From positions 1 to 64,000 of IMG/VR virus record IMGVR_UViG_3300027631_000014: a stretch of 64,000 nt of DNA. One strand, written 5' to 3'. Position numbers and translations under genes: made by a program. The notes under the pieces were generated by a model. That model saw only the letters and a program-made list of their open reading frames with translations. It was not told the DNA's origin and did not search any database. The DNA comes from a virus. Position 1 is the first letter of the stretch, and each line of letters starts with the position of its first letter. Positions 11,968 through 63,219 of this stretch are shown one piece after another.

Positions 11968-14172
11968 ATGGCAAACGAATTCATAGCTCGTAACGGGCTC
12001 ATATCACAAAATAATTCAATAGTAAGTGGATCACTAACTGTTACTCAAGGTATAACAGGATCTTTATTAGCAATTAATAGTATTGATTCAGAAAATAGAG
12101 TATTAAGTGATGGACTACCAAGTGCATCACTAAATTGGAATGATAGGGTTCTAATAGATACTAATGGTTCAGGCTCTTTAGGTTGGCAATCAAGAAGATT
12201 ACTAGATGAAAATGATCTTAAATCAGTAGAATGGGGTAATAGATACTTATATAGATCTGATAATGTAGTAGTAGTAGATTGGGAAAATGGTCTATTTACC
12301 GGTTCATTAGACGGAACAGCTTCATTTGCTGTATCCGCATCATGGGCGCCGAGTGTTACAATAGATACCAGTTCATTTGCAACTACAGGTTCAAATCAAT
12401 TTAACGATAGTCAATCTATTAGTGGTTCATTAAATGTTTCTCAAAATGTAGAGATATTCGGAATTCTTAACAATGGATCAAATACCGTAGCTACAGGTCA
12501 GCATTCACACGCTGAAGGAGAAAACTCTACAGCATATGGCGCGTTTTCACACGCTGAAGGTGGAGCAGCTATTGCACATGCAGAATATTCTCATGCTGAG
12601 GGTGCCAGTGCTCAAGCATTTGGAGATGGCTCTCACGCTGAAGGTTCAGTAACAGAAGCTAGAGGAGGGTATTCTCACTCAGAAGGTGACAGTACATTAG
12701 CATCTGGCTCGTATTCTCATGCAGAAGGTTCTGGTACTCAAGCAATAGGTAACTCTTCACATGCAGAAGGTACTCAAACAGCAACCGGAGGAATAAACGG
12801 ATATTTAGCAACATCAGTAGCATCTGGGTTAGTTACTTTATCTGGATCGTATGGAGATGTATCAGGTGATTATCTAGCAGGAAATTATTTATATCTAAAC
12901 GATGCTGATTATGATGCTGCATATGGTATTAGTAGTTTTGCAATTGACTCTGCAACATTCAATGGAACTGAAACCGAAGTACTTTTAGTAGATGTAAGTG
13001 TTGGCACTACAACAGCAGTAGTAGGAAATCTAAATCTTCTATCAATTAATTGGGCTGGCGATCAAACATATAAAGGCGACTATTCACACGCAGAAGGCGT
13101 TAGTACACGAGCCTTAGGTACTTATTCACACGCTGAAGGTGAAGCGGGACAAACAGTAGGAGGTGGTTCCCATGTTGAAGGTTATAGTACAATAACAATA
13201 GGACCATATTCACACGCAGAAGGAAATGCTACAATAGCGATAGGACTGTATTCTCATGCTGAAGGTTTAAGTACTTTAGCGTCAGGTTCATATTCACACA
13301 CTGAAGGAAATTCAACTCAAACAATAGGTAACTCTTCACACGCTGAAGGTAGACTAACAACAGCTCTAGGTGAATATTCACACGCTGAAGGAAATGGTTC
13401 TCTAGCAATAGGATCCTATTCTCATGCTGAAGGTAATTCAACTCAAGCAATTGGTGATTTCTCTCATGCAGAAGGAGAAAGTACAATAGCATCAGGATCT
13501 TTCCAACACGTATCAGGCAAATTCAATACTCATGGAGATGACACTTCATTATTCATAATAGGTAATGGAGTAGATGATGCAACTAGATCAGATGTATTTA
13601 GAGTATCTGGTTCATCAGTGCAAGTAACTGGTTCATTAATTGTAAATGACGGAACATATGAATCAATTAACACTACTACAAGAGAGTTAGTAGATGATGC
13701 TGGTATTATCGCAGTTAATTGGCAAACTACTATCGCGGGATCTGAAAGAACATTATTTGATGATACAGGCCTAGAGTCGCTAAAATGGAATTCACGTAAA
13801 CTCTTTGATGAGTCTAGCAACTTGTCAATTGACTGGGGTAATGCAGGTTCTGGTGATTCTAGAAATTTAAAAGACTCGGATGGTGTTAGTACAATATTAA
13901 ATTGGGATACAACCACAGCTGCAGGTGCCTGGTTTTCCGGTTCTTTAATAGGAACGGCATCATATGCTCTAACAGCATCTTTTGCTTTAAATGGTGGTGG
14001 CTCTACAGATACTGGTTCCTTACTAACAACAGCCTCAATATCATTAAATACAATTACTTTTACAAAAGGAGATGGAAGTACATTCCCAATCACTGTAGAC
14101 ACAGGATCAGGTGGTGGAGGTGGAGGAAGCAGTGCAACATCAAACTTATTTAATTACTATAACTTTATATAA
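11968..14172 (+). CDS. Tail fibre with YadA-like SHAEG repeats
   Basis: 734 residues. Residues about 40-100 and 565-650 carry repeats of a pattern L-x-D-x-x-G-x-x-S-x-x-W-x-x-R. Residues about 178-515 contain a long run of S-H-A-E-G repeats, spaced about 14-16 residues, of the head-domain type found in trimeric autotransporters such as YadA. They are interrupted by a unique insertion (about 272-370). A GTASYALTAS stretch and a Gly-rich segment precede the C-terminal NLFNYYNFI. This is a trimeric adhesin-like fibre; the receptor is unknown. Confidence 0.85.
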   Translation: MANEFIARNGLISQNNSIVSGSLTVTQGITGSLLAINSIDSENRVLSDGLPSASLNWNDRVLIDTNGSGSLGWQSRRLLDENDLKSVEWGNRYLYRSDNVVVVDWENGLFTGSLDGTASFAVSASWAPSVTIDTSSFATTGSNQFNDSQSISGSLNVSQNVEIFGILNNGSNTVATGQHSHAEGENSTAYGAFSHAEGGAAIAHAEYSHAEGASAQAFGDGSHAEGSVTEARGGYSHSEGDSTLASGSYSHAEGSGTQAIGNSSHAEGTQTATGGINGYLATSVASGLVTLSGSYGDVSGDYLAGNYLYLNDADYDAAYGISSFAIDSATFNGTETEVLLVDVSVGTTTAVVGNLNLLSINWAGDQTYKGDYSHAEGVSTRALGTYSHAEGEAGQTVGGGSHVEGYSTITIGPYSHAEGNATIAIGLYSHAEGLSTLASGSYSHTEGNSTQTIGNSSHAEGRLTTALGEYSHAEGNGSLAIGSYSHAEGNSTQAIGDFSHAEGESTIASGSFQHVSGKFNTHGDDTSLFIIGNGVDDATRSDVFRVSGSSVQVTGSLIVNDGTYESINTTTRELVDDAGIIAVNWQTTIAGSERTLFDDTGLESLKWNSRKLFDESSNLSIDWGNAGSGDSRNLKDSDGVSTILNWDTTTAAGAWFSGSLIGTASYALTASFALNGGGSTDTGSLLTTASISLNTITFTKGDGSTFPITVDTGSGGGGGGSSATSNLFNYYNFI
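12490..13520 (+). repeat. In-gene DNA repeats encoding SHAEG units
   Basis: About 18 copies of TCACACGCTGAAGG-like or TCTCATGCTGAAGG-like segments occur at roughly 40-50 base intervals inside the fibre gene. Synonymous differences show drift between copies, but many remain similar enough for recombination to change repeat number. Confidence 0.8.
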
Positions 14173-15046: not shown

Positions 15047-18000
15047 ATGGCTATAAGAACTGTATCAAATACTGGAGGTAACTGGAATGCAACCGCTACT
15101 TGGGTTGGTGGAGTAGTTCCTAGTGCTACATTAGATACTGTTGCATTTACAGCAACATCTGGACAATTAACAATCAATGTAGCCTCAACTTGTATAGGTA
15201 TTAATTTTACTAATTATGTTAATACTATAACTTTTACCGCATTACTTACAATTAACGGCCCAGTTAACTTAGGTACAGGTGGATACACACAAGCTGGTGC
15301 ATCAGGAATACAAGCAGGTACAACAGCAACACATACAAGTGGAGGTGTAACTTGGAGTAGACTATGGACTTTTGCTGGAACCTCACAAACACACACATTA
15401 TCTGGAACTTGGACATTCACAGGTACGTTAAATTTTAGTGCTACAACGGCAATGACTTTAACTGGTAGTACAATTAATACAACTAGGTTAACTGTAACAA
15501 CTACTGCTACAACATCTGGAACAACAGCAATTGTGTTTAATGGGACAGGGACTTGGTCACACACCGCTGCTGGTATTATTCAAAACAATATTACAATTAA
15601 TACCGCTGGAACATTAACAATAGGTACCAATATTTACTATAATACAGGAACACTTACTTATACGTTAGGAACAGTAAACACAACAACTAATAGTAGTATT
15701 TTAAATATTTCTGCCTCAACTACATTATCAACAGGAATCATATCTTGGAGTAGTCTTATAGTATCAGCAGCAGCAACCATTACTTTAGGAGCTAACTTAA
15801 AAGTATCATCTGCTTTTACAATGACCACCGGTGGTTATGCAGTAACTATTACACCTGGAGCATTTGCTGTAAATTTTTCAACTGCAAATGTTACTATTGG
15901 TAATACAAACTCAGGAGCGACAACTTTTACTTATAACGGTACAATAACTTGTGTTAATTTTACAGTAGTTGCTGGGAATGCAACTAGTGGTACTTTAAAT
16001 GGTACAACATATAATATCACAGGAAATTTCACAATAAACACATTTGGTACTGGTGGTTCAGTAGCTGGAACATCTACAATAAATCTTACAGGTACAGGTA
16101 CAGTACAACAACTTAACTCGGGAGTATATGCAGTACCAGTAACTAATAATTTTACTATAAACACATCTGGTACTATAACATTTTTATCTGGTACTAGATT
16201 TTTTTATCAAACAGGAATATTCACCTATACTGCAGGTACAGTTATAACAACTAACACTACATTAGGTATATTAGGTTCTTGTACATTAAATACTGATATG
16301 GGAGCAACACAAATAAATTGGGTTAATGTTACTTCCTTTGCCACAGCAACTATAACGTTAACTAGCAACCTAAACATAACTAATTTAACAGTTAGTTCAG
16401 GCATTCTGAGTTTTACTTTAGGTGTAAATAATTTGTTAATTTCCGGAAATTTAACTATGAATAGTAATTCTAGTCTTAATACACCACAAAATTTACAAAT
16501 AGTAAATCTTACATTAGGAAGTGGAACTGCTACAGGAGCGTTTATGAACGGCCTTTTCACAATATCAGTATCAGGTAATTTAACTCAAAATACTGGTAAT
16601 CAAGCATGTGGAGGAACAACAACTATTCAATTAAATGGGACAGGAACTTGGAGTAATGCAAGTACTGGTACTTTAAATAATAATTTAATATTTAATACAT
16701 CAGGTATTATAACTTTAGGCGCAAACATTTACTATATTGCCGGGACACTCACTTACACAGCAGGTACAGTTACAACTACTGGTAATACTCTAAATATAAC
16801 TGGTGCGGCAACTTTAAATACAAATGTGTTAAATTGGAATAATATAATTATTAGTGGTGGTTCATCAACAATAACAAGTAACTTAAATATTTTAGGAAAT
16901 TTAACTATATCAACTACCTCTACAGCAGTTAATGGTTTATTTAACATTAATGTTGGAGGTAATTTAACAATTAATATTTCAATGGGTGGAACAGCAACAA
17001 TAGTGTTAAATGGTACAGGGACATGGTCACATGGAGCCGCTTTTTATCTATCAAACCCACTAATATTCAATACAAGTGGTACAATTACAATAAGTGGTAC
17101 TGTTTATTTTAGTAGTGTCGGTTCTATAATATACACAGCAGGGACAGTTATATCAAACGGTAGTACCTTACAAACAAACGCAGGAACAATATCCACAGGC
17201 ACTATGTTATGGAATAATATACTATTTGCAACTAATGGTTCTAGTGTAATGTCTATTGGTTCTAATTTATATGTAAATGGTACATTTACAATAGGAGGTA
17301 ATGGAACAGTTAGTGGAACATTTAATATCTATTGTAATAACTTTACTATAAATAATAGTACATCAGGAGGATCTGTAGTTGCAGCGACAATGTCTCAAAT
17401 TGTCTATGTTTATAATACATTAACATTTGGTTTTTCATCCAGCGGTACAGGTTCAAATGGTGCTACATTTTATGTAAATGGAAATTTAGCATTAGGTAAT
17501 GGTGGTGCAAATGGAGGGACATCACAAGTAATAATGACTGGTACTGGAACCGTAAGTGGAACAAATAATTTCGCACATCCATTAACTATTAACTCATCGG
17601 GTGTTATAACATTTTCTACTACATTTACTATAAGTAGTACCTTTACTTACACTTCAGGTATTGTTAAAGCTAATACAACAACATTAACATGTGCACCAGC
17701 TTCTGGACAAACACTTATAGGTATGAATAAAATAGCATGGAAAGCTGTAGTTTTAACATCTGGTCAAACATTTACAATGAATGAGTTTTTTAGTGGAAGT
17801 CCTAGTGTAAGAACCAATATTACTCCATCATCAACAACAAACTACATAATCACATTCCAAGACAGATTTGAAAAATTCTCTAAATTTGTAAAAGTAAATA
17901 GAGCAACAATATCAACACCAGGACAACTAACAGTAACAACGTATAAAGGAAATCAATTAAATAACGTAGGTATAAAGTTTGCTCCTAATAACATAAACAA

Positions 18001-18091
18001 TGGACTAGCTAAAAACAACCCTAGTGTTCAACCAACCCCTACATACGGATTACAACCAACTTTTCTAATGGCAGATCCTACTTTAAGTTAA
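15047..18091 (+). CDS. Large beta-rich adhesin or tail spike-like protein
   Basis: 1014 residues, almost free of charged residues for the first 850 and rich in Thr, Gly, Asn and Ser. The N-terminus (VSNTGGNWNATATWVGGVVP) is a start often seen in phage proteins with beta-helix-like repeats. Imperfect units containing G-T-G-T-W-S, F-N-T-S-G-x-I-T and L-T-Y-T-x-G-T-V recur roughly every 60-90 residues, consistent with a long beta-solenoid. The last 100 residues are more charged (FQDRFEKFSKFVKVNRA) and may anchor to the virion. No catalytic motif seen. Confidence 0.8.
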   Translation: MAIRTVSNTGGNWNATATWVGGVVPSATLDTVAFTATSGQLTINVASTCIGINFTNYVNTITFTALLTINGPVNLGTGGYTQAGASGIQAGTTATHTSGGVTWSRLWTFAGTSQTHTLSGTWTFTGTLNFSATTAMTLTGSTINTTRLTVTTTATTSGTTAIVFNGTGTWSHTAAGIIQNNITINTAGTLTIGTNIYYNTGTLTYTLGTVNTTTNSSILNISASTTLSTGIISWSSLIVSAAATITLGANLKVSSAFTMTTGGYAVTITPGAFAVNFSTANVTIGNTNSGATTFTYNGTITCVNFTVVAGNATSGTLNGTTYNITGNFTINTFGTGGSVAGTSTINLTGTGTVQQLNSGVYAVPVTNNFTINTSGTITFLSGTRFFYQTGIFTYTAGTVITTNTTLGILGSCTLNTDMGATQINWVNVTSFATATITLTSNLNITNLTVSSGILSFTLGVNNLLISGNLTMNSNSSLNTPQNLQIVNLTLGSGTATGAFMNGLFTISVSGNLTQNTGNQACGGTTTIQLNGTGTWSNASTGTLNNNLIFNTSGIITLGANIYYIAGTLTYTAGTVTTTGNTLNITGAATLNTNVLNWNNIIISGGSSTITSNLNILGNLTISTTSTAVNGLFNINVGGNLTINISMGGTATIVLNGTGTWSHGAAFYLSNPLIFNTSGTITISGTVYFSSVGSIIYTAGTVISNGSTLQTNAGTISTGTMLWNNILFATNGSSVMSIGSNLYVNGTFTIGGNGTVSGTFNIYCNNFTINNSTSGGSVVAATMSQIVYVYNTLTFGFSSSGTGSNGATFYVNGNLALGNGGANGGTSQVIMTGTGTVSGTNNFAHPLTINSSGVITFSTTFTISSTFTYTSGIVKANTTTLTCAPASGQTLIGMNKIAWKAVVLTSGQTFTMNEFFSGSPSVRTNITPSSTTNYIITFQDRFEKFSKFVKVNRATISTPGQLTVTTYKGNQLNNVGIKFAPNNINNGLAKNNPSVQPTPTYGLQPTFLMADPTLS

Positions 18092-18128: not shown

Positions 18129-19265
18129 ATGGCTAACATTCCTATATATCCAGGTAGCTCGTCGTTTTTTCCAGGTAACACACCCTTTGGATTTTACGAC
18201 AATGACTATCAATTCCAAGTTGATGCAGATAAAGTAACTACTTTTTGTGCTCGAAGACTAGGATACCCTATTATGGATGTTGAATTACAAGATTTAAATT
18301 TCTACACAGCATTTGAAGAATCAATTACTATTTATGGAAATGAATTATATGCATTTCAAGTAAGAGATAACTTATTAAATGTAATTGGTGCTCCTACCTC
18401 ATCAAATATGAATCACGCAATCATAACTCCATCAATGGCTGGTGTTATTAGATTATCGCAGCAATATGCCTCAGAAGCAGGAACAGGAGGAAATGTAAAT
18501 TGGTATAGTGGTTCAATTGAAATGACTAATTACCAACAAGATTACGATTTAGGAGCTTGGGCAATAGAAAACAACATAACAGGAGGAATAGAAATAAAAA
18601 GAATATTCTGGCAACCAATTCCAGCAGTTAATCAAGTATACAACTTGAATATGTTCTCAGGATTAGGAGGAGTACCTGCAGTTGGAACTTATGGATTGTT
18701 TGGATCAACCGGATTTTTAATGTATCCAACAAGTTTATTAGTACAAACAACTCAAGCAGTTGAAATGCAAAACCAAATTTCACTACCTGATTTTACATTT
18801 GAATTAATAAACAACAAACTAAGAATATTTCCTATTCCAACTCAAGATGGAGATAGAATTTGGTTTCAATATCTTAGTATAGAAGAAAGATTAAATAGTG
18901 TTATTGGAAATGCACCTGGAGCAGTAACTAATGCCTCAAATGCTAACTTTACAAATCCAAAATATACACAAATTAATTCAATTGGTAGACAATGGATATT
19001 TGAATATACATTAGCATTATGTAAAGAAATGTTAGGATATGTTCGTGGAAAATACACTCAAGTACCTATTCCTGGTAAAGAAATTACTTTAAATCAATCA
19101 GACTTAATTACAGCTGCAACAGCAGAAAAAACATTATTGATTGATAGGTTAAGAGTATATTTTGATGAAACTTCAAATCAAAAATTATTAGAAAGAAAAC
19201 AAGCAGAATCAGTAGCTCGTCAAAGTGAATTAGGACAATCACCAATGACAATTTTTATAGGATAA
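18129..19265 (+). CDS. Neck/head-completion protein, possibly gp13-like
   Basis: 378 residues. The N-terminus (PFGFYDNDYQFQVDADKV, then RRLGYPIMDVELQDLNFYTAFEES) matches, from memory, a conserved structural protein of marine T4-like phages that precedes gp14- and gp15-like genes. Gene order here is compatible with T4 genes 13-14-15, which close the filled head and join it to the tail. Residues about 110-230 are Gly-rich and strand-like; the C-terminus is helical. I assign a neck role mainly from context, so the T4 number is uncertain. Confidence 0.6.
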   Translation: MANIPIYPGSSSFFPGNTPFGFYDNDYQFQVDADKVTTFCARRLGYPIMDVELQDLNFYTAFEESITIYGNELYAFQVRDNLLNVIGAPTSSNMNHAIITPSMAGVIRLSQQYASEAGTGGNVNWYSGSIEMTNYQQDYDLGAWAIENNITGGIEIKRIFWQPIPAVNQVYNLNMFSGLGGVPAVGTYGLFGSTGFLMYPTSLLVQTTQAVEMQNQISLPDFTFELINNKLRIFPIPTQDGDRIWFQYLSIEERLNSVIGNAPGAVTNASNANFTNPKYTQINSIGRQWIFEYTLALCKEMLGYVRGKYTQVPIPGKEITLNQSDLITAATAEKTLLIDRLRVYFDETSNQKLLERKQAESVARQSELGQSPMTIFIG

Positions 19266-19266
19266 T

Positions 19267-19779
19267 ATGGCAATTTTTGGATCAAGTAGAGACGCATCAT
19301 TCCTAAGAGGAATGAGTAGAGAGGTAATGGGAAACGTTATCTCACAACAATGTGCTTTTTACAAATACAAACTATCAGAAACTGTTATAAACATGTATGG
19401 AGAATCTTCAGGAGGTAAATTTTTTGGAGGTCCTATTTTGTTTAATGCTTTAATAACTATTGGAGATAATGTGAGTCCAACAAGTGAATTAGGTGTAAAC
19501 TTTGATTGGCCTATGTCATTTTCATTTTTAAGAGATGATTTAGTAGATGCAAACGTGCATCCTGAAGTAGGAGACGTTATATTATATCAAGAAAGTTATT
19601 GGGAAGTAGATAATACAATTATAGGACAATTCTGGGGAGGTAAAGATCCTGATTATCCAATGGAACCAAATCCATTAAATCCTGGATTAGCAGAGTTTGG
19701 ATATAATGTTTCTGTGATATGTGAATGTCATTACGTGCCAGCTGATAGGTTAAATATTATTAGAACAAGATTATTATAA
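19267..19779 (+). CDS. Neck protein, gp14-like
   Basis: 170 residues with the pattern FGSSRDASFLRGMSREVMGN at the start, then FSFLRDDL, VHPEVGDVILY and GKDPDYP. This combination is typical, from memory, of a conserved neck or tail-completion protein in marine T4-like phages. It starts one base after the previous stop and its own stop overlaps the next ATG (TAATG), so the three neck genes form one translationally coupled block. The T4 gp14 label is tentative, since T4 gp14 is longer (256). Confidence 0.6.
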   Translation: MAIFGSSRDASFLRGMSREVMGNVISQQCAFYKYKLSETVINMYGESSGGKFFGGPILFNALITIGDNVSPTSELGVNFDWPMSFSFLRDDLVDANVHPEVGDVILYQESYWEVDNTIIGQFWGGKDPDYPMEPNPLNPGLAEFGYNVSVICECHYVPADRLNIIRTRLL

Positions 19780-20690
19780 TGGCTAAAAATAGTAGAACAC
19801 CCATTCCAAAAACTCAAAGAGAACTTAGTATTGAACAACACACTGCTTATAGTTCTGAGGTAGGAAATCCTAATACGTCAAATGATCTTAATAGAGGAAA
19901 TCAAATTTCTTTTAATGGAGATTCTACTAAACCGTTTTCAATAGGAATTCAAGATATTGATGAGGCAGTTTTTTACTATTTTAAAAATGTAATTAAACCA
20001 TTTGTTTTACAAAATGGAGAAAGAATAGAAGTACCTATTATTTATGGTTCACCTGAAAAGTGGGCTTCATTTCAAAAGTCAGGATACTTTAGAGATTCTC
20101 AAGGTAGAATTATGATGCCAATCATCATGTTCAAAAGAGACAATGTAGAAAAAGTAAGATCAATTGCAAATAAATTAGATGCAAACAATCCACACAACAT
20201 ATCAATAGTTAAAAAATCATATTCGTCTAAAAATGCATATGACAATTTTAGTGTATTAAATAATGTTAGACCACAAAAAGTAAATTATGCAGTTGTAGTC
20301 CCAGATTACATTACTGTAACTTATAGTTGTGCTATCAATACTTATTACATGGATCAGCTAAATAAAATCGTTGAAGCAATTGAATACGCTTCAGATTCAT
20401 ATTGGGGTGATCCAGCACGTTTTCAGTTTAGAGCGATGATTGATTCGTTTGCTATTAAAGCAGAACTTGCAGATAAAGAGGAAAGAACAGTAAGTAGTAC
20501 TTTTAATATTAAAATGAATGGATACATAATCCCAGACGTAATACAAAAAGATATGACTGCATTAAAGAAAATTCCTGATGTAGTTAAAGTAGTAGTAAGT
20601 GAGCAAATAATGGGAGAAAATGGGGGAGGAAATAACTATACCCCAGTATATAGATCATTTGATGATTCATTTAATAATTCATTTGGATAA
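19779..20690 (+). CDS. 15: Tail completion / sheath terminator protein, gp15-like
   Basis: 303 residues. Order of features fits T4 gp15, the hexameric cap that ends the tail tube and sheath: a VPIIYGSPEKW segment near residue 90, MMPIIMFKR, a central YSCAINTYYMDQLNKIVEAI helix, YWGDPARFQFRAM, and a late ERTVSSTFNIKMNGYIIPD strand. Length is near T4 gp15 (272). Coupled by TAATG to the gp14-like gene. The Gly/Asn-rich C-terminal tail (from about 280) looks disordered. Confidence 0.7.
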   Translation: MAKNSRTPIPKTQRELSIEQHTAYSSEVGNPNTSNDLNRGNQISFNGDSTKPFSIGIQDIDEAVFYYFKNVIKPFVLQNGERIEVPIIYGSPEKWASFQKSGYFRDSQGRIMMPIIMFKRDNVEKVRSIANKLDANNPHNISIVKKSYSSKNAYDNFSVLNNVRPQKVNYAVVVPDYITVTYSCAINTYYMDQLNKIVEAIEYASDSYWGDPARFQFRAMIDSFAIKAELADKEERTVSSTFNIKMNGYIIPDVIQKDMTALKKIPDVVKVVVSEQIMGENGGGNNYTPVYRSFDDSFNNSFG

Positions 20691-20730: not shown

Positions 20731-21654
20731 ATGTCACAACAAACAAAAAATCAACTAACTGTACTTTTAAATACTAATATTACTGATGCTTTAAATAAGC
20801 AAAATACCGCATCAAAAGTAAGACAAGTTATTCAAAGTACTATCGATAGTTTAGGAATACTATCTGGATCAAATTCATTTGTAGGTGATCAAACAATAAC
20901 TGGATCATTAATTGTAAATGGAAATATTATAGAGACACCGTTTTTAAATAATGAGACTAATAATGTTAATTTTATCAGAGCAACTCAAAATATTATCAAT
21001 CATGGAGATTTATTAATACCATTAAATTGTACTTTCATTATAGAAGAAAATGCCCAATATCTTATATTAGGTGAATTAATTAATAATGGAACTGTTATAG
21101 TTAGTGGAAGTTTAATAGCTAACCAAGGAATAACAGGACCAGGTTCGGTAGTAGGTCCTGGAGTTGTTTCAAATAATAACACAATAATAACATTTGATAA
21201 AGCAAATCAAGCTTATGGATTTCCTCAATTAAATAATACAGGATACAGTAATTTAGGATTTAAAAATAATACTGCAAATTTACTTTCAAACTATTCAACA
21301 GTAGCAACTCGCTTAGATGGTCAACAATCCGTTTATTCAATAGATACAACAGGATGGGATGCTAATACACAATATTTACATTACTACTTACCAGAAGGAC
21401 AATACGAAGGACAATCAGTAGAATTAATAGTGACAGGTAATGGGGTTAATTTAGGTATTGGAAACTCAGCCAAAATACAAATATGGATAGATAGTATCCG
21501 TAAGCCAGAATACTATGGACAATTATCAGGAGGACCAGGAGGATGGCAAGCGTTTTCAGATCCTAATGTGCTTGGTAATTGGAGAAAAGATGTTCCAAGA
21601 GCAATTTGGATGAATAATGCATGGACAATTGACAATGACTTTTACTGGGATTAA
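20731..21654 (+). CDS. Fibre-like virion protein with unique C-terminal domain
   Basis: 307 residues. Residues about 50-75 (SGSNSFVGDQTITGSLIVNG) have the T-G-S-L-x-V-x-G repeat seen in the large fibre genes. Residues about 110-155 look like a short beta-helix with turn repeats (LINNGTVIVSG, GPGSVVGPGVV). The C-terminal 150 residues (YLHYYLPEGQYEGQSVELIV, later WRKDVPRAIWMNNAWTID) form a distinct beta-rich domain that could bind a surface ligand. It lies between the neck and sheath blocks, beside the LCIB-like gene. Not recognised as a named protein. Confidence 0.7.
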   Translation: MSQQTKNQLTVLLNTNITDALNKQNTASKVRQVIQSTIDSLGILSGSNSFVGDQTITGSLIVNGNIIETPFLNNETNNVNFIRATQNIINHGDLLIPLNCTFIIEENAQYLILGELINNGTVIVSGSLIANQGITGPGSVVGPGVVSNNNTIITFDKANQAYGFPQLNNTGYSNLGFKNNTANLLSNYSTVATRLDGQQSVYSIDTTGWDANTQYLHYYLPEGQYEGQSVELIVTGNGVNLGIGNSAKIQIWIDSIRKPEYYGQLSGGPGGWQAFSDPNVLGNWRKDVPRAIWMNNAWTIDNDFYWD

Positions 21655-21673: not shown

Positions 21674-21681
21674 TATTTATA
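21674..21681 (+). promoter_or_regulatory. Late-type motif TATTTATA
   Basis: AATATTTATAATAAACAAAAA, 22 bases before the ATG of the LCIB-like gene. Confidence 0.55.
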
Positions 21682-21703
21682 ATAAACAAAAACTAAAAAC
21701 AAA

Positions 21704-22630
21704 ATGCCAACTTATATTGAACTTCAACAAAACGGACCGATTCCTACTTCATCACCAGTAGGAACTGTAATTTTATCAGTAAATCAAGGTCAACTTACAC
21801 TTACAGATAATAATGGAATAAATCCATCACAATCATTATATACAACAACTGTAAGAGGACTTTATCCAAGTGCTTCTTTAACAGAGGTGTGGGGTACATA
21901 TACTGTAAATTATATTAAACAAAAAAGTGGTTACCCATCAAATGATGTATTACATGCTGTAGCAATTTGCTCTGATGATGTAGATGCATTTACAGCTACA
22001 GGAAATTTAGGACAATATCCATTATCTATGCAGTCTTTTCTAGGACCATTTATGGCAGGTGGATTAGCAGGATATCCATTTGTAGGATCAGTTGGATTTG
22101 GAGCTTATGCTTCACATATCACCGATACAGGAACGTTATTTGTATCTTGTACACCACACATAGGAGTTACTTTTACTGGATCTGCAGGATATCAATTCCG
22201 TAAAGGTCAAGCAGCTATATCTACAAACTGTGGAGCAGTTCATGGAGCAGTAGGATTAGTTACAACTGATCCAAATCCACCATCACAATCAAATGCTCCA
22301 TATGATAATGAAAATTATGAATTGTGGAAATTAGCAGATATAATTTATCCATATTCCGCTTCACTTAGTGGTTCAATTAGTGAAAATGTAATGGTGGCTA
22401 CAGACATAATAAGAGAAGCAGGATGGGATTATGTTGTAAACAATTCAAGTTCATTTTTTAGTTCACTTGCAGGTAGAACAATGTATGCAATGAGTGGTAT
22501 CTTTATTAATACAGATTATCAATTTCAAGCATATACTGATGTAACATATTTTGCATCATATAATTCATTAACAGACACTTGGACAGATCTTACACAAGAT
22601 TATAAAGATGGTTTATTTGCTCAAGGATAA
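21704..22630 (+). CDS. LCIB-type (theta-class) carbonic anhydrase-like protein
   Basis: 308 residues. The central region matches the limiting-CO2-inducible B/C (LCIB) family, which holds zinc in a Cys-His-Cys site like beta-carbonic anhydrases and interconverts CO2 and bicarbonate. Visible: I-C-S-D-D-V (88-93; family pattern C-x-D-E-V), GFGAYASH (131-138), TPHIGV (150-155), an Arg-x-Gly-Gln at 166-169, and NCGAVHGA (175-182). Candidate ligands are C89, H138 and C176, with D91 and R166 as the likely Asp/Arg pair. The N-terminal 50 residues are extra and could link to the virion. It has its own late-type motif and sits between fibre and sheath genes, an unexpected place for an enzyme. Activity is untested. 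Confidence 0.75.
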   Translation: MPTYIELQQNGPIPTSSPVGTVILSVNQGQLTLTDNNGINPSQSLYTTTVRGLYPSASLTEVWGTYTVNYIKQKSGYPSNDVLHAVAICSDDVDAFTATGNLGQYPLSMQSFLGPFMAGGLAGYPFVGSVGFGAYASHITDTGTLFVSCTPHIGVTFTGSAGYQFRKGQAAISTNCGAVHGAVGLVTTDPNPPSQSNAPYDNENYELWKLADIIYPYSASLSGSISENVMVATDIIREAGWDYVVNNSSSFFSSLAGRTMYAMSGIFINTDYQFQAYTDVTYFASYNSLTDTWTDLTQDYKDGLFAQG

Positions 22631-22652: not shown

Positions 22653-22901
22653 ATGACAACAAAAGTTTTGACACAAGAAGAATTACAATTATTAAAATCA
22701 ATTCAAGAAAAACGCCTTCAATTAACTGAACAATTTGGTATTATTGAATTAAGATTTCAAGAACTTGAATTACAAAAAGAATTTCTTAAAGAAGAATTAA
22801 AAAAGTTACGAAAAGAAGAAACTAACATCGGCGAAACTTTACAACAAAAATATGGTGATGGAACAATCAACCTTGAAAAAGGAGAATTTATAGGCGTCTA
22901 A
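22653..22901 (+). CDS. Small coiled-coil protein
   Basis: 82 residues. Residues about 6-65 form a continuous charged heptad helix (EELQLLKSIQEKRLQLTEQF, then ELELQKEFLKEELKKLRKEE), followed by a short beta-like tail DGTINLEKGEFIGV. Similar small coiled-coil proteins are, from memory, common near the sheath gene in marine T4-like phages, without known function. It starts 22 bases after the LCIB-like gene with no promoter motif of its own, so it is likely co-transcribed with it. Confidence 0.7.
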   Translation: MTTKVLTQEELQLLKSIQEKRLQLTEQFGIIELRFQELELQKEFLKEELKKLRKEETNIGETLQQKYGDGTINLEKGEFIGV

Positions 22902-24767: not shown

Positions 24768-25256
24768 ATGGCAATATTAGACCCAAACGAAATATTTTTC
24801 ACAGCATTTGAACCGAAAGTAAAAAATCGATTCATTATGTATGTTGATGGTATTCCTTCATACACAATTAAGAAAATTGGTGCTGTAGGAGTAACAATGG
24901 ACGAAATTAAATTAAATCACATTAATGTTTACCGTAAAATTAAAGGTAAAGCACAGTGGGATGATATCGAAATGACTTTATTTGATCCTATCACACCATC
25001 AGGTGCTCAAGCTGTAATGGAATGGGTACGTTTACATCATGAATCAGTTACTGGTCGTGATGGTTACTCAGATTTTTATAAGAAAGATGTAACTATTAAC
25101 GTATTAGGCCCTGTAGGTGATATCGTATCAGAATGGATTATTAAAGGTGCGTTTATTAAATCTGCTAAATTTGGTGATTACAGTTGGGATGATGAAAATG
25201 CAGCTCAAGAATTATCAGTAAATTTAGGAATGGATTATTGTATCTTGAATTTCTAA
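24768..25256 (+). CDS. 19: Tail tube protein, T4 gp19-like
   Basis: 162 residues, the same size as T4 gp19 (163). The start ILDPNEIFFTAFEPKVKNRF and the strands RFIMYVDGIP, WDDIEMTLFDPI and VTINVLGPVGDIVSEWIIKG match the tube family, which forms the stacked hexameric rings of the inner tail. It directly follows the sheath gene and is closed by a strong terminator, fitting a separately tuned, highly expressed gene. Confidence 0.93.
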   Translation: MAILDPNEIFFTAFEPKVKNRFIMYVDGIPSYTIKKIGAVGVTMDEIKLNHINVYRKIKGKAQWDDIEMTLFDPITPSGAQAVMEWVRLHHESVTGRDGYSDFYKKDVTINVLGPVGDIVSEWIIKGAFIKSAKFGDYSWDDENAAQELSVNLGMDYCILNF

Positions 25257-35144: not shown

Positions 35145-36434
35145 ATGTTTTATATTGTCGAAACCGACGAACAATTAAATGAATTATTTGACAAAGACTA
35201 TGATAAAGTTTTTGTTGAACCTATTTATTATAATGACAACATACATCCATCACTAAATCATATATCTTTACTGTATATAAAGCCATTAAACAACGATAAA
35301 GGCTATATGGTGTGTATTCATCATACTGAGGCATTAGAGCTGAATAAAACGCCTATAAACCGTTTATTGGCGTCATTTACTGAAGTATATGTACGTGATA
35401 GAAAGTCATTTATATATCGTTTTCCATTAAAAAATATTATAGATATTTCATTTGGTGCTCCTGAATATGCTGAATTAACAACCCAAACACATGATTTTTT
35501 CTATCAAAAACATGGTGATGTTGAAGATATAAATACCATTATCCCATTGGTTAAACATTATGAAAGGTGTGAATTGGTATTTAATAAGGTAAAAGAGTAT
35601 TGTGTTAAATTTGACAATACAAAGTTTCATAATAAATTAACAAGTGTATTTTTTGCAATTGAAAGAAACGGAATTAAAATAAATAAAGATGTATTTAATG
35701 AATTTTTTAAACCAAACACTGAGTTATACTCTATTCAAGATAGTAAAGTATATACCCAATATAACTTATATACTACAACCGGAAGGCCTTCCAATAGCTT
35801 TAACGGCATCAATTTTGCAGCATTGAAAAAAGAGGATGGATGTAGAGAAGCATTTATACCAGAAAATGATTGCTTTATTGAAATAGATATAAGTGCTTAC
35901 CACCCAACATTAGCAGCACATTTAGTAAAATATGATTTTGGAGATGAAACACCATATCAATACTTTGCTAAAGAAGCTGAAATTGAAGTAGATGAAGCAA
36001 AAATACTAATGTTTAGACAGTTATATGGAGGAATATATAAAGAATATCAACATATAGAATACTTTCAACTAATTCAAAAACATACAGATAAGTTATGGAA
36101 GGACTTTAAAACGAATGGTTTTATCGAATGCCCAATTTCAGGACATAAATTTAAAAACAACATAAAAGATATCAATCCTCAAAAACTATTTAACTATACA
36201 TTACAAAATTTAGAAACATCAACAAATGTACTGATATTGTGGGATATCATGATGTTATTAAAAGGTAAAAAAACAAAAATAGTATTATACATATACGATG
36301 CTCTTCTATTTGATATAGATAAAGATGAAGAAAAAGAATTAATGAATAAAATATTAAACATATACTATAAATATAATTTACGAGTTACTAGTAAAAAAGG
36401 AATAAATTATAAAGATATTAAAATTATCAAGTAA
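35145..36434 (+). CDS. Short DNA polymerase I-like (family A) protein
   Basis: 429 residues. Family A polymerase motifs occur in order: T-T-G-R-P-S (211-216), followed by REAFIP; motif A EIDISAYHPTLAAH with D248; an O-helix-like KILMFRQLYGG (286-296); and motif C IYDALLFD with D385. Motif C normally reads HDE; here it is YDA, so one acidic residue is missing while both metal-binding Asp remain. The N-terminal 150 residues may be a degenerate exonuclease-like domain. Usual Pol I cores exceed 550 residues. The window also encodes a family B replicase at 57669, so this is probably an accessory polymerase. Confidence 0.8.
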   Translation: MFYIVETDEQLNELFDKDYDKVFVEPIYYNDNIHPSLNHISLLYIKPLNNDKGYMVCIHHTEALELNKTPINRLLASFTEVYVRDRKSFIYRFPLKNIIDISFGAPEYAELTTQTHDFFYQKHGDVEDINTIIPLVKHYERCELVFNKVKEYCVKFDNTKFHNKLTSVFFAIERNGIKINKDVFNEFFKPNTELYSIQDSKVYTQYNLYTTTGRPSNSFNGINFAALKKEDGCREAFIPENDCFIEIDISAYHPTLAAHLVKYDFGDETPYQYFAKEAEIEVDEAKILMFRQLYGGIYKEYQHIEYFQLIQKHTDKLWKDFKTNGFIECPISGHKFKNNIKDINPQKLFNYTLQNLETSTNVLILWDIMMLLKGKKTKIVLYIYDALLFDIDKDEEKELMNKILNIYYKYNLRVTSKKGINYKDIKIIK

Positions 36435-36461: not shown

Positions 36462-36469
36462 TATTTATA
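36462..36469 (+). promoter_or_regulatory. Late-type motif TATTTATA before HNH gene
   Basis: AATATTTATAATAAAATATAG, 13 bases before the HNH ATG. It is isolated within the replication region, where the other promoter class dominates. Confidence 0.5.
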
Positions 36470-36482
36470 ATAAAATATAGGT

Positions 36483-54478: not shown

Positions 54479-55918
54479 ATGAATAAACTAGATAAACAAT
54501 ACACAGACCTACTCCAAGACATCTTAGATAATGGAGTAACAAAAAGTGACCGTACAGGCACAGGAACGCTATCAGTATTCGGAAGACAGATTCGTCATAA
54601 AATGAGTGATGGGTTTCCTTTACTCACAACTAAAAAGATGGCTTGGAAATCAGTGGTAACTGAATTGTTATGGTTTTTAAGAGGAGATACCAACATCAAA
54701 TACCTTGTAGATAATGGTTGTCATATTTGGGACGGTGATGTGTATAAGAATTACAGAAGTAAAGCCTCTATGAGTAACGATAAAGATTGTTTAGTTAGAC
54801 AAGAAGAAGGTTCGTTGCTTAAAGAAATGAGACTTTTTACACAAGAAGAATTCATCAACAAAATAAAAACAGATGATGAGTTTGCTAATAAGTGGGGTGA
54901 TTTAGGTCCCGTGTATGGGAAGCAATGGAGGAGTTGGGGTGAAAGATATTCATCTTGGGAAAAATTTGAAGGTGGGATTGTTCCTGATGGTGTAGAAATA
55001 AAAAGTTTTGTACACAAAGGATTAATGACAAGAAAAAAAATAAAAGGTATAGACCAAATCGCAAACCTTATCAACGACCTTAAAACAAACCCAGACTCAA
55101 GACGATTAATGGTTTCAGCTTGGAATGTTGGAGAATTGGATTCAATGGTTCTTCCACCATGTCATTATGGATTTCAAGTTTATACAAGAGAGTTGAGTTA
55201 TGAAGAAAGATGTGATGTGTTTCAATTTACTACTGATTTCAACAAGGAAACCAGAGAACACCTTAAAGAATTCAATAATGATATTATGAATGACTATAAC
55301 ACCCCAACACGAGCAATCTCTCTAATGTGGAATCAACGTTCAGTAGATACATTCTTAGGTTTACCATTCAATATAGCATCTTATGGTTTACTATTAGAAA
55401 TCATCGCTAAAGCAGTTAATATGGTTCCTGATGAGCTAATTGGAAATTTAGGTGATGTACACCTTTACAGTAACCATGTTGAACAAGCAAAGGAACAGAT
55501 TGGTAGAGAGCTGAGTTTAGAAGAAGTTAAAAAAATCTATATTGATTGGAGCTTGTTAAAAAGTTCTGGAGGTTATGCTGGTGATATTAAAGCAGATATT
55601 TGTGAATTCACTAATCAGATATTTATTGATGGGTGGAAAAATAATAAAGACCCTTTCACAGGTAAACCTTTAATTGAACTTGAATGTTTTTTATTAAACT
55701 CCATTCACACAAGGCAACCATTCCCATTACCAACATTAAACATCAATGCAGAGTTCTGGCCAACAGAAAATGGTTCATGTGGAGAAGGACCATTAGATGC
55801 TATAGCAATATTTAACGGATTTAAAGATGATAATTTTTGTAAATGTTTATTAGAGGAAGATATACAATTAAGTAATTATGTATCTCATCCAAGCATTAAA
55901 GCACCTTTATCAAATTAG
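54479..55918 (+). CDS. thyA: Thymidylate synthase (ThyA type) with large insertions
   Basis: 479 residues, against 264 in E. coli ThyA. The core is complete: DRTGTGTLSVFG (24-35), LLWFLRGDTNI, DLGPVYGKQWRSW (141-153), PDSRRLMVSAWNVGELD, catalytic C228 in PPCHYGFQ, QRSVDTFLGLPFNIASYG and HLYSNHVEQ. Extra segments lie at about 85-140, 153-190, 236-285 and 342-415. Two of these share motifs with the ORF at 52559. It methylates dUMP to dTMP using methylene-tetrahydrofolate, joining the nrd genes in nucleotide supply. The gene's 3' end is duplicated at 56402. Confidence 0.9.
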   Translation: MNKLDKQYTDLLQDILDNGVTKSDRTGTGTLSVFGRQIRHKMSDGFPLLTTKKMAWKSVVTELLWFLRGDTNIKYLVDNGCHIWDGDVYKNYRSKASMSNDKDCLVRQEEGSLLKEMRLFTQEEFINKIKTDDEFANKWGDLGPVYGKQWRSWGERYSSWEKFEGGIVPDGVEIKSFVHKGLMTRKKIKGIDQIANLINDLKTNPDSRRLMVSAWNVGELDSMVLPPCHYGFQVYTRELSYEERCDVFQFTTDFNKETREHLKEFNNDIMNDYNTPTRAISLMWNQRSVDTFLGLPFNIASYGLLLEIIAKAVNMVPDELIGNLGDVHLYSNHVEQAKEQIGRELSLEEVKKIYIDWSLLKSSGGYAGDIKADICEFTNQIFIDGWKNNKDPFTGKPLIELECFLLNSIHTRQPFPLPTLNINAEFWPTENGSCGEGPLDAIAIFNGFKDDNFCKCLLEEDIQLSNYVSHPSIKAPLSN

Positions 55919-57668: not shown

Positions 57669-60257
57669 ATGTATCAATCAATTTACTACGATTTTAGTAC
57701 TTATACTTATCACTTAAGAGATGATAAATTAGGATGGTCTGAATTTCAGTACCAACCTACTTATTGGAGACGAGTTGATGAATGGCAAGAAAATGCTCAA
57801 CCTGTATTAACAGGAGGATGGGCTGTTCCTACTAAAAAATATAGTAAAGAAGATACTAACTTGTTAGAAAAAGATATTAGTAAAGAGTTACTTGTATTGA
57901 GGGAACTATATTACAAACTTGATGATGTAGTACCTTCATTCCATAACATTGTCCATTTAGATATTGAGATTGAAATGGGAGGAGCATTAACACCAGAATA
58001 TGTTAAAGCTGCTCCTATGCCCATTACTTCTATTGCTTTAATAGATATGACTACAAAAACAAAAATATGTTTTATTGTAGACAAAAGCAAAGAAATAGAA
58101 GAATATAATCAAGAAGGTAAACATATCATTCCTTGCCATTCAGAAAAAGAACTAATTAAAAAATTCTTAGATAAATGGGAAGAACTAGATCCAACTATTG
58201 TAATAGGATGGAATAGTGCTTACTTTGATATACCTTATGTTTACCATAGGTTTAAACAAGTAGTAGGTGGAGAACAAGTATTACGTTTATCTCCAATTAA
58301 GAAAATCAATGTAAGAGATTTTGCTGGTGAAACACAAATCACTATAGGAGGAATCAATCACTTAGATTACATGTTACTTCATAAAAAGTATATTATGAAG
58401 GAAGAGCCATCATATAAATTAAATGATATTGGTTTAAAATATGTTAAATTAGGTAAAATTGAATATGAAGGTAACTTAAATACGTTGTTTAAAAACGATT
58501 TAAATGCGTTTATAGAATATAATTTACGTGACGTAGAAATTATAGAGAAATTAGAGGAAAAGCTTAAATTTATTGAATTAACGATAATGATTTCCCACAT
58601 CTGTAATATACCTTATGAAAGTATTTACTACAACACTGTAATGAATGAGGGTGCTATTTTAAAGCATCTTAAACGTGAAGGTATTGTTTCACCAAATAAA
58701 CCAACTACTCACAATCCGATGCTAAAATCGAATACTGAGTCTTATGCTGGTGGGTATTTACTTGAACCCATACCCGGTTTGTATTTTGATGTTATTGATT
58801 TGGACTTTACCTCACTATATCCTTCCATTATTAAGTCACTTAATTTAGGTATTGAAACATTAGTAGGTCGAATTAGAGTAGAAGACAATCCAACTTATGA
58901 ACAAAACCACTCATTAGAAAAACTTAAATTAAGAGATCCTGATGAGAAAATTGTTGTTGAAAGATTAAATAAAGAAACCTACACTCTTAAATCAGCACAA
59001 ATCAAAATAGGAGACTTAATTAAATTAATTGAAAAAAATGATTACACAATAGCAGCATCAGGTGCTATGTTTAGGACTGATGAAAAAAGTGTTGTATCAA
59101 CTATTTTAGCAGGTTGGTTTGATAAACGAGAGCATTATAGAGGTTTAAAGAAAAAAGCAGGTGGAGAAGAGGATTGGGCAAATTATAAATTATATGACTT
59201 GTTCCAACACGCCTTTAAAATCTTACAAAATGCAATGTATGGTACATTTGCTATTCACGGATGGAGATATACTGATGGTCAATTAATTTGTAGTGCTGCT
59301 ATTACTAATTCAGGACAAAGACTAACTTGTGAATCAATTGACTTTGTTAACAATAAAATAAACACTGAATTAAAAGCAGAAAAACAACATATTTGCATTT
59401 CAGATACAGATTCACTTTATATAGTATTAGGTGACTTACTTAAACATAGATACCCAAATTTCAAACCTGAAGAGAAAAACGATAAAATATTATTACTAGC
59501 CCAGGAAATTCAAAACGAAGCAAATGCTGACTTAAATCGTATTTGTAAAAGTTTATTTAACATTGAACCAAACACCCACTACTTTCAATTAAAACAAGAG
59601 GTAATATGTGCTGGAGTATTAACTACAGGTAAACGAAGATATGCAATGTATGTTACTAATAAAGAAGGTGTTGCAGTAGAAGAACTAGACATGAAAGGAC
59701 TTGAATTAATGAAGTCTAATATGAATAAATTATTTAAAAAATTTGGAGAGGATTTTATTAAGAATATATTGTTTGGTAAACCTAAACCTGAAATAGATAA
59801 TGATATAATTACATTTTATAAAACATTAAAAACACTAGATCCTAGATCATTAGGTAAACCTACAGGGGTAAAACAAATTCATAACTACCATATACCTGCT
59901 AGATCAGGAGATATGTTTAGTTCATTTAGATTAAAAGCACCTGCAAATACAAAAGCAGCAGTACGTTACAATGACTTACTTAGATTTAAAAAACTAGATA
60001 AAAAGTATGAATCAATTATAGAGGGTGATAAATTGTTTATTATTAACTTAAAGAAAAATCCTTACAACTTAGAAACAATTGGTTTACCAAACGCCCAAGT
60101 ACCTCCTGTAATAGAAGAATTTGTTAAAACATATATTGATGTTGAGGAAATATTTGACTCGTTGTTAGCAAATAAGTTAAAGTCACTTTATGGAGATTTA
60201 AAATGGGATTTTCCAGCACTTAACCCAAATGTTAAAAAATTCTTTGCTTTCAACTAA
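57669..60257 (+). CDS. 43: Replicative DNA polymerase, family B (T4 gp43-like)
   Basis: 862 residues (T4 gp43 is 898). Exonuclease motifs: HLDIEIE with D98/E100, GWNSAYFDIPYV (180-191) and YNLRDVEII with D288. Polymerase motif A is DLDFTSLYPS (377-386), motif B KILQNAMYGTFA, motif C ISDTDSLYI near residue 578. Both activities therefore look intact. It copies phage DNA together with the clamp encoded just downstream. The C-terminus ends KKFFAFN and may dock the clamp. Confidence 0.95.
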   Translation: MYQSIYYDFSTYTYHLRDDKLGWSEFQYQPTYWRRVDEWQENAQPVLTGGWAVPTKKYSKEDTNLLEKDISKELLVLRELYYKLDDVVPSFHNIVHLDIEIEMGGALTPEYVKAAPMPITSIALIDMTTKTKICFIVDKSKEIEEYNQEGKHIIPCHSEKELIKKFLDKWEELDPTIVIGWNSAYFDIPYVYHRFKQVVGGEQVLRLSPIKKINVRDFAGETQITIGGINHLDYMLLHKKYIMKEEPSYKLNDIGLKYVKLGKIEYEGNLNTLFKNDLNAFIEYNLRDVEIIEKLEEKLKFIELTIMISHICNIPYESIYYNTVMNEGAILKHLKREGIVSPNKPTTHNPMLKSNTESYAGGYLLEPIPGLYFDVIDLDFTSLYPSIIKSLNLGIETLVGRIRVEDNPTYEQNHSLEKLKLRDPDEKIVVERLNKETYTLKSAQIKIGDLIKLIEKNDYTIAASGAMFRTDEKSVVSTILAGWFDKREHYRGLKKKAGGEEDWANYKLYDLFQHAFKILQNAMYGTFAIHGWRYTDGQLICSAAITNSGQRLTCESIDFVNNKINTELKAEKQHICISDTDSLYIVLGDLLKHRYPNFKPEEKNDKILLLAQEIQNEANADLNRICKSLFNIEPNTHYFQLKQEVICAGVLTTGKRRYAMYVTNKEGVAVEELDMKGLELMKSNMNKLFKKFGEDFIKNILFGKPKPEIDNDIITFYKTLKTLDPRSLGKPTGVKQIHNYHIPARSGDMFSSFRLKAPANTKAAVRYNDLLRFKKLDKKYESIIEGDKLFIINLKKNPYNLETIGLPNAQVPPVIEEFVKTYIDVEEIFDSLLANKLKSLYGDLKWDFPALNPNVKKFFAFN

Positions 60258-61290: not shown

Positions 61291-61584
61291 ATGTCAAAAT
61301 TACAAGCTGTATTCAACAGCATTATCGTTAGACCTCAAGAAGAGGAAGAAACAACTTATGGTTCAATCGTTGTTCCAGATTTAGGAAAAGAAAAAGGATT
61401 ACGTGGTACTATTGTATCTGTAGGACCTGGTTACTATTGTGCAACAGGAGAATTTGTACCTACAACTCTTAAAGAAGGACAGCAAGTCATTTTACCAGCA
61501 GTAGGTCCATCAAAAGTAGAACTAGATGGTCAAGAATATTGGTCATGTGGTGAAAATGTAGTATTAGCAATTATTAACGATTAA
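61291..61584 (+). CDS. groES: Co-chaperonin GroES
   Basis: 97 residues, the same length as E. coli GroES. FNSIIVRPQEEEETTYGSIV with a mobile loop, VPDLGKEKGLRGTIVSVGPG, and EGQQVILPAVGPSKVELDGQ fit the family roof and barrel strands; the C-terminal VVLAII is typical. The mobile loop (about residues 17-32) is the part that docks GroEL and differs from the bacterial G-G-I-V pattern. It lies nine bases before groEL in one operon, a complete phage chaperonin pair. Confidence 0.9.
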   Translation: MSKLQAVFNSIIVRPQEEEETTYGSIVVPDLGKEKGLRGTIVSVGPGYYCATGEFVPTTLKEGQQVILPAVGPSKVELDGQEYWSCGENVVLAIIND

Positions 61585-61593
61585 AATCAAGTT

Positions 61594-63219
61594 ATGAATA
61601 AAAAAGTAGAATTCGGGCCTGACGCTCGTAAAAGAATTGTAAACGGTATTAATAAAGTAGCAGATGCAGTGACATCCACTTTAGGACCTAATGGTAGAAA
61701 CGTTATATACACTGAATTTGGCGAAGTAAGGTCAACAAAAGATGGTGTTACTGTCGCAAAACAGATTTCAAATCTAGAAGATCCATTAGAAGAATTAGGT
61801 GTACAGATGATTAAACAAGCATCTATCAAAACAGCAAACAATGCAGGTGATGGTACAACTACATCTACTTTACTTGCTCAATCTATTATTAATGAGGGTT
61901 TATCTTATTTAGATAAAGGAGCAAATGCAGTAGAAATTAAACGTGGTATTGATCAAGCAGTAAAAGAAGTAGTAAATTGTATTCGTAAAGAGATATCACA
62001 AGATATTAACCACGAATCTCAATTAGAACAAGTAGCTACAATTTCAGCAAACAACGACCCAGAAATTGGAAAGTTAATTGCAGCAGCGATGGATAAAGTA
62101 GGTCGTGAAGGAGTAGTTCATATTGAAGAATCTAAAACAGGAGAAACATATCTTGAAACAGTAGAAGGTATGCAATTTGATAGAGGATATAAGTCACATT
62201 ACTTTGTTACAAACAATGCTGATATGACTTGTACTTTAGAAGAACCATTCATTTTAATTGCAGACAAGAAATTTAATCAAGTAAAAGATTTATTACCAAT
62301 TTTAGAAGGCGTTTCAGGAACAGGAAAATCGTTATTGATTATTGCTGAAGATATTGACGGAGAAGCTTTATCGACTTTAATTGTAAATAAAATGAGAGGA
62401 ACATTAAAAGTAGCAGCTGTAAAAGCTCCTGACTTTGGTGATCGTAGAAAATTATTACTAGAGGATATGGCTACTATGACTGGTGGTCAGGTATTTAGTT
62501 CAGATAAAGGAATGAAGTTAGATAAATTTTCTTGGGATTGGTTTGGTAAAGCTCGTTTAGTTACTATTTCTAAAGACCAAACAACTATTGTTGATGGCAA
62601 AGGAGAAACAGAAAAAATCGAAGCACGAATTGAAGAACTTCAACAGCAAATTGACAAATCAATTGTACCATTCGAAAAAGAAAAGTTACAAGAACGCTTA
62701 GCAAAATTTATTGGTGGTGTAGCTATTATTCACGTAGGTGGAAATAGTGAACTAGAAATGAAAGAAACTAAAGATCGTGTTGACGATGCTTTACATGCTA
62801 CAAAAGCAGCAATTGAAGAAGGTATTGTACCAGGTGGTGGATCTGTTTTATTATATGCTCGTGAAGCAATTATTAAAACAAGAACTGAACTAGATTCAGA
62901 CATCTACATTGGTAAACAAATAGTTTATAAAGCATGTGCTGCTCCATTTATGAAGATTTTAACAAATGCAGGTTACTCAGAAGGTGAATGTTATGGTTTA
63001 ATCAATCAAATGGGAGATAACAACTGGAAAGGATACAATTTAAAATCTGAAACATTCGTAGATATGAAAGAGGCGGGCATCATCGACCCAGCTAAAGTAA
63101 CTAGAAATGCTATTGAAAATGCAGCATCAATTGCTGGTACAGTATTGTTAACTGAAGCAGCAATTATTGAAGTAAATAACGATAAAAAAGAAGAAGGTGG
63201 AATGCCTGGAATGTACTAA
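61594..63219 (+). CDS. groEL: Chaperonin GroEL
   Basis: 541 residues (E. coli 548). Nucleotide-binding and hinge motifs: TSTLGPNGRNVIY, NNAGDGTTTSTLLAQSII (with the catalytic Asp region GDGTTT), an apical domain with GMQFDRGYKSHYFVTNNADM, and ATKAAIEEGIVPGGGSVLLY. NAIENAASIAGTVLLTEAAI closes the equatorial domain. The C-terminal tail is GGMPGMY, as in bacterial GroEL. It probably folds the abundant capsid or other phage proteins that the host chaperonin handles poorly. Confidence 0.96.
   Translation: MNKKVEFGPDARKRIVNGINKVADAVTSTLGPNGRNVIYTEFGEVRSTKDGVTVAKQISNLEDPLEELGVQMIKQASIKTANNAGDGTTTSTLLAQSIINEGLSYLDKGANAVEIKRGIDQAVKEVVNCIRKEISQDINHESQLEQVATISANNDPEIGKLIAAAMDKVGREGVVHIEESKTGETYLETVEGMQFDRGYKSHYFVTNNADMTCTLEEPFILIADKKFNQVKDLLPILEGVSGTGKSLLIIAEDIDGEALSTLIVNKMRGTLKVAAVKAPDFGDRRKLLLEDMATMTGGQVFSSDKGMKLDKFSWDWFGKARLVTISKDQTTIVDGKGETEKIEARIEELQQQIDKSIVPFEKEKLQERLAKFIGGVAIIHVGGNSELEMKETKDRVDDALHATKAAIEEGIVPGGGSVLLYAREAIIKTRTELDSDIYIGKQIVYKACAAPFMKILTNAGYSEGECYGLINQMGDNNWKGYNLKSETFVDMKEAGIIDPAKVTRNAIENAASIAGTVLLTEAAIIEVNNDKKEEGGMPGMY

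Follow-up and report, generated by a model that had tools for sequence, protein, structure and literature searches.

LCIB-type carbonic anhydrases are known from the CO2-concentrating mechanisms of algae and from some bacteria. PtLCIB3 and PtLCIB4 have been described as apparently constitutively active (PMC9614477), and Chlamydomonas LCIB and LCIC are inactive when purified despite an intact fold and zinc motif (PMC5876011). Virion-borne enzymes usually have glycans, peptidoglycan or lipids as their targets, and we found no paper linking LCIB to phages in the open-access literature searched. T4 fibritin attaches to the neck through a conserved 50-aa N-terminus and has an extremely variable C-terminal domain (PMC3797505).

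The window analyzed here is a stretch of 64,000 nucleotides from a virus (IMG/VR record IMGVR_UViG_3300027631_000014, positions 1 to 64,000), in which an LCIB-type gene, P0001, lies among tail genes. The closest cultured relatives found are the Flavobacterium immuto phages (57% identity for the major head protein, 54% for the sheath), which makes a Bacteroidota host likely, although this is an inference; caution is warranted because the next match, at 50% for the head protein, is to Microcystis phage Mel-JY01.

An LCIB-type gene between neck and sheath

The genes and signals around P0001 are as follows.

18129..19265, + strand: neck protein (PHROG head-tail adaptor Ad2, E 2e-10)
19779..20690, + strand: conserved gene with a homologue in immuto (gene 214); likely a tail completion protein, a function inferred from position
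20731..21654, + strand: P0005, fiber-like neighbor of 307 aa, whose N-terminal anchor is common to the LCIB fusions L006/L007 and the fiber L194
20731..20925, + strand: N-terminal anchor of P0005, ~60 residues long; L006/L007 carry this module fused to their LCIB domain
21674..21686, + strand: TATTTATAATAAA, inferred late promoter element, also present before neck, sheath and tube genes
21704..22630, + strand: P0001, LCIB-type beta-carbonic anhydrase-like gene of 308 aa (ORF, Pfam PF18599, PtLCIB4 fold match)
22653..22901, + strand: 82-aa charged, coiled-coil-like protein between the LCIB gene and the sheath, conserved in immuto and L015
22954..24684, + strand: tail sheath (PHROG 23, E 2e-74)
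24768..25256, + strand: tail tube (PHROG 4542, E 1e-22)

The P0001 reading frame is intact, with an ATG at 21704 and a stop at 22630. Its product matches a single Pfam family, PF18599 (LCIB_C_CA), with E 7.6e-29 and 101 bits in a profile search, against a curated cut-off of 25 bits. Sequence matches in the PDB are 6kfs (2.5e-16), PtLCIB4 5b5y (1.5e-14) and 9vzj (6e-14), together with mutant entries of 5b5y. These matches are far past chance, and P0001 belongs to the LCIB-type beta-carbonic anhydrase family. Three parts of the protein are delimited by the profile and the alignment.

21905..22555, + strand: Pfam LCIB_C_CA match in the profile search, residues 68-284
21704..21841, + strand: N-terminal extension, residues 1-46, without a cellular LCIB counterpart in the alignment
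22568..22627, + strand: C-terminal extension, residues 289-308, missing in aligned cellular LCIBs and alignable across the phage family

The protein thus has ~46 N-terminal and ~20 C-terminal residues that cellular LCIBs lack. A weak PDB match to a ‘tail protein’ (9c2d_S, E 0.019) was considered as an independent phage link and dismissed as spurious; when searched alone, the stretch of P0001 behind it hit repeats of 9c2d_S and likewise of 9ncf_S, a protein with immunoglobulin-like domains, and what they had in common was a short motif of the G-Y-Q-x-K-K type.

An AlphaFold2 model of P0001 (pLDDT 72, pTM 0.76) predicts the LCIB fold. Its best PDB matches are PtLCIB4 (5b5y) and 6kfs, with TM 0.80-0.81 by target length; canonical beta-carbonic anhydrases are weak matches ranked after the LCIBs. 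The model was built from 45 diverse sequences, and an input of five close homologues gave pLDDT 34. Confidence is low for residues 1-31, and pLDDT falls below 50 for residues 85-120, which include C89.

A preliminary description of this locus had proposed a 308-residue LCIB/C-family product, which holds by Pfam, PDB sequence matches and predicted fold; the LCIB profile hit whose absence it had named as a refutation was found and is strong (PF18599). The motifs it listed are all present, with C89, H138 and C176 at the positions it gave, as ICSDDV (C89), GFGAYASH (H138), PHIGV (H152), R166-K-G-Q and NCGA (C176), and its claim of 50 extra residues at the start holds roughly, with ~46 lacking a cellular counterpart. 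It had also proposed an overlay on solved LCIBs: the predicted fold matches, but the proximity of C89, H138 and C176 is not established, since C89 falls in the region with pLDDT < 50. Placement between a fiber and the sheath likewise held, with P0005 upstream and the 82-aa ORF followed by the sheath downstream, and so did the virion-class motif at the gene, for this window, its late-promoter function being inferred.

Exact copies of that motif, TATTTATAATAAA, precede the genes for neck (18107), LCIB (21674), sheath (22923) and tube (24739). Further exact copies lie at 63477 and, ahead of an endonuclease VII-like gene, at 36462. With up to one mismatch there are 11 matches in the window against 2.3 expected, and none of 100 shuffles reached 11. 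Because the copy at 36462-36474 precedes an endonuclease VII-like gene, the motif appears to mark the late class rather than virion parts only; that it acts as a late promoter is inferred. Two exact copies of a second word, TATATTTAAATAAAA, lie in the non-structural half. In other phages, many of the inspected LCIB genes are preceded by ATATTTAT-type words (by eye, with no chance estimate).

Flavobacterium phage immuto (Immutovirus) has the homologues of 19779, 22653 and the sheath in the same order. Its interval from the 19779-20690 homologue to the sheath holds no LCIB gene and several genes annotated as tail fiber or structural, so the neck-to-sheath interval looks like a variable fiber cassette.

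Several other genes in the window were recorded. Upstream of the neck genes, positions 15047-18091 encode a threonine-rich, highly repetitive protein of 1014 aa (repeats like GTLTYTxGTVxT) for which no family matches were found, and 11968-14172 encodes a 734-aa protein with YadA head repeats (Pfam) that is probably a fiber; stretches homologous to the latter lie near the LCIB genes of L095 and L102. There are two DNA polymerase PHROG matches, at 35145-36434 (429 aa; phrog_17, E 1e-9) and 57669-60257 (a family B polymerase of 862 aa). The thymidylate synthase gene at 54479-55918 is 479 aa long, its PHROG match (profile 29-270) is spread across residues 1-347, and an insertion, for instance an intein or a homing endonuclease, is possible. 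GroES-like and GroEL genes (the latter 541 aa, PHROG chaperonin) lie at 61291-63219.

Active-site conservation and selection

Conservation was assessed by aligning 42 non-redundant phage copies with 21 cellular LCIBs from Bacteroidota. Six residues (C89, D91, H138, H152, R166 and C176) are identical in every sequence, 42/42 phage and 21/21 cellular. The relevant positions in the window are these.

21968..21976, + strand: C89-S90-D91, Cys and Asp of the CxD active-site motif by alignment to 5b5y; C89 and D91 invariant
22115..22117, + strand: H138, invariant, aligned with PtLCIB4 H88
22157..22159, + strand: H152 of PHIGV, invariant
22199..22201, + strand: R166, invariant arginine, probably of the active site
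22229..22231, + strand: C176, second conserved cysteine, invariant

Counted along the printed alignment, S90 and H138 of P0001 fall on PtLCIB4 residues S47 and H88, which are the mutated positions in PDB 5b60 and 5b5z, respectively. S90 is kept in all but two of the phage copies (40/42), which have Ala. More broadly, 21 of the 30 positions that are invariant among the cellular proteins carry the same residue, without exception, in every phage copy. Five others (S87, T130, P140, Q206 and G264) have been exchanged in every phage, and the remaining cellular-invariant positions vary among the phages; the five changes could possibly mean an altered interface. Which histidine would bind zinc is undecided, H152 being as invariant as H138.

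The phage LCIB genes are under purifying selection overall. In nine pairs (Nei-Gojobori), dN/dS was 0.11-0.20 for six and 0.29 for P0001 vs L006, with higher values for P0001 vs L021 (0.41; 63% identical) and P0001 vs L002 (0.47; 96% identical). A pseudogene or decaying acquisition is ruled out by the intact frame and these ratios.

Carbonic anhydrase activity of P0001 is likely on this basis, with zinc binding and catalysis both inferred, as there are no assay or metal data. Conservation favors activity without proving it, because the purified Chlamydomonas proteins are inactive (PMC5876011). A possible alternative is therefore a non-catalytic virion module, in which the LCIB fold was co-opted as a fiber head or adhesin, metal and fold being kept for stability and activity lost or irrelevant. 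The evidence for a virion location (the fusion, the upstream motif and the anchor shared with L194, described below) supports this alternative equally, as do the in vitro inactivity of Chlamydomonas LCIB and LCIC with intact motifs and the replacement of several family-invariant residues in all phages. Against it, more than the metal ligands is retained: each of the 42 phage copies has D91, R166 and both histidines, and the position equivalent to S47 of the active PtLCIB4 is nearly invariant.

Phage relatives, fused modules and gene context

Relatives of P0001 were found on at least 65 uncultivated viral contigs in a profile scan. The same alignment against 84,980 prokaryote genomes, in a scan that depends on short patterns, returned only three loci, all in Bacteroidota MAGs (26-27%); with the Pfam model, LCIB genes were found in 35 of 395 sampled Bacteroidota genomes. 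Among catalogued phages, none of 50,697 records matched when queried with P0001, L101 and the 776-aa L094 protein, PHROGs contains no LCIB counterpart, and a search of BFVD by fold gave no viral LCIB homologues. The 42 phage rows of a 66-sequence tree all group in a single clade (support 100/100) on a long stem of 3.7 changes per column. The branches nearest this clade are Bacteroidota LCIBs (L150-L153 and L156/L157), with the caveat, raised as a program warning, that long branches meet near the stem.

The domain is joined to different partners within this clade. In the window and its close relatives (L001-L005) it follows the ~46-aa N-terminal extension, and P0001 itself lacks a fiber anchor, being a polypeptide separate from P0005. 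In L006 and L007, by contrast, it forms the C-terminal part of a 374-aa protein encoded in one open frame, the first ~60 residues of which are 78-80% identical to the P0005 N-terminus; the end of the stalk to which LCIB is joined in these two proteins aligns with residues 18-38 of P0001. On the contig of L007 (region L015), this single fusion gene replaces the window's two genes and is flanked by neck-region homologues and by the 82-aa and sheath genes, the neck-to-sheath placement being kept. An assembly artifact was considered for the fusion and ruled out, as it occurs in two metagenomes in copies that are 94% identical with dN/dS 0.135. The P0005 anchor is also 42% identical over 60 aa to the N-terminus of L194, a protein of 824 aa with collagen repeats, an S74 chaperone domain and PHROG tail-fiber matches.

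Other additions occur elsewhere. L093/L094 have the domain embedded in a 776-aa protein, with homologues of the major head protein and protease in the region. A large group of contigs (e.g., L095, L101, L129) has the domain preceded by a ~80-aa module, copies of which are also encoded on their own, as small proteins, close to some LCIB genes; on several of these contigs a family B DNA polymerase is encoded downstream of the LCIB gene, and a neck homologue and glycosyltransferase-like genes are nearby. The LCIB of L091 is extended at its C-terminus by 108 aa that weakly resemble part of another protein (L055), and its gene adjoins a DNA polymerase and sugar-modification-type genes rather than neck or tail genes, a context that counts against a virion reading.

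Further observations concern the genes around these loci. Directly upstream of the LCIB gene in L091 (L091:969-5897) are two genes with a near-start GSHNA motif, possibly carbamoyltransferase-like, and homologues of the window's GroES-like and GroEL genes both follow the L091 DNA polymerase. In the large T4-like contigs L101, L129, L133 and L142, glycosyltransferase-like genes stand in a row near the LCIB gene, one of which, in L101, matches HtrL_YibB.

Two rival explanations bear on this context. In the first, the gene would be an auxiliary metabolic gene, encoding a soluble intracellular enzyme that supplies bicarbonate for carboxylation or buffers pH, its location among tail genes being incidental. 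Retained active-site residues, the presence of ribonucleotide reductase, thymidylate synthase and GroEL genes on the same phage, and the position of the L091 gene beside a DNA polymerase are in its favor. The fiber-anchor fusion of L006/L007, the modules added in other phages, the upstream motif common with virion genes and the neck-to-sheath position kept in L015 all speak against it, and we regard it as unlikely. In the second, the protein would be an environment-sensing whisker, its LCIB domain binding bicarbonate or CO2 to gate adsorption, much as fibritin controls the long tail fibers of T4 according to conditions, rather than acting as a bulk enzyme. The location in the neck-to-sheath interval and the conserved ~60-aa anchor with exchanged C-terminal parts, a fibritin-like organization (PMC3797505), are compatible with this idea. 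Fibritin homology was not found, however (no PHROG match for P0001 or P0005 and no PDB hit for P0005), direct evidence of sensing is absent, and this alternative appears very unlikely.

A proposed virion component with a probable carbonic anhydrase

The reading we prefer, with a probability of roughly 0.6, is that P0001 is a late-made part of the virion, most likely a collar or tail fiber or a fiber-tip module, with an intact LCIB-type carbonic anhydrase; zinc, catalysis and presence in the virion are inferred. The preliminary description had left open whether the product is an enzyme supplying bicarbonate or a part of the virion. The virion part is favored because of the L006/L007 fiber-anchor fusion, the common upstream motif and the gene order; bicarbonate supply is not excluded. 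The contrast between enzyme and virion part is itself probably false, and the protein is likely both, because no phage copy has lost any of the putative catalytic residues.

Under the preferred reading, P0001 would be made late and seated between neck and sheath as a collar or tail fiber or fiber-tip module. Zinc held in the conserved Cys/His/Cys set would activate water, and CO2 and bicarbonate (plus a proton) would be interconverted on the particle exterior. The window phage would do this with a separate LCIB protein that has a short stalk-like N-terminus and sits beside the fiber P0005, and its relatives with LCIB as the C-terminal module of an anchored fiber. The benefit is a guess: a shift of pH or bicarbonate at the host surface or, alternatively, service as an adhesin or sensor head like the variable C-terminal domain of fibritin. 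A bolder version, for which the evidence is balanced, is that a broad phage clade, probably of Bacteroidota, displays active carbonic anhydrase and that the particle carries out CO2/bicarbonate/proton chemistry at the host surface. Beta-carbonic anhydrases are dimeric and fibers are usually trimeric; how a dimeric enzyme fold would fit such a fiber is an unresolved point against display, and there is no assembly model.

One phage LCIB clade recurs in dozens of contigs with varied added modules, including a fiber anchor, and with a constrained active site. If the preferred reading is true, an inorganic-carbon enzyme on a fiber would add an activity of a kind new to virions, and one open to a simple, direct assay.

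Of the known systems, T4 fibritin (wac) and the neck and tail fibers of T4-like phages have a comparable plan, with a ~60-aa anchor, an exchanged C-terminal part and a neck-sheath neighborhood (PMC3797505, PMC3004832). The P0005/L007 arrangement is alike in organization without detectable homology, and fibritin has no known enzyme domain. The Bacteroidota cellular LCIB-like proteins (a domain of 224-229 aa) are the closest cellular relatives in the tree, at 29-32% identity for the five most similar; they stand alone without fiber modules, unlike the phage copies. With the LCIB/LCIC family as a whole (PF18599; 5b5y, 6kfs, 9vzj), the phage proteins have the domain, the fold and the putative active-site residues in common, and they differ in an extra stretch at about residues 95-100, in terminal extensions or whole added modules, in the changes at S87, T130, P140, Q206 and G264, and in their virion-type context.
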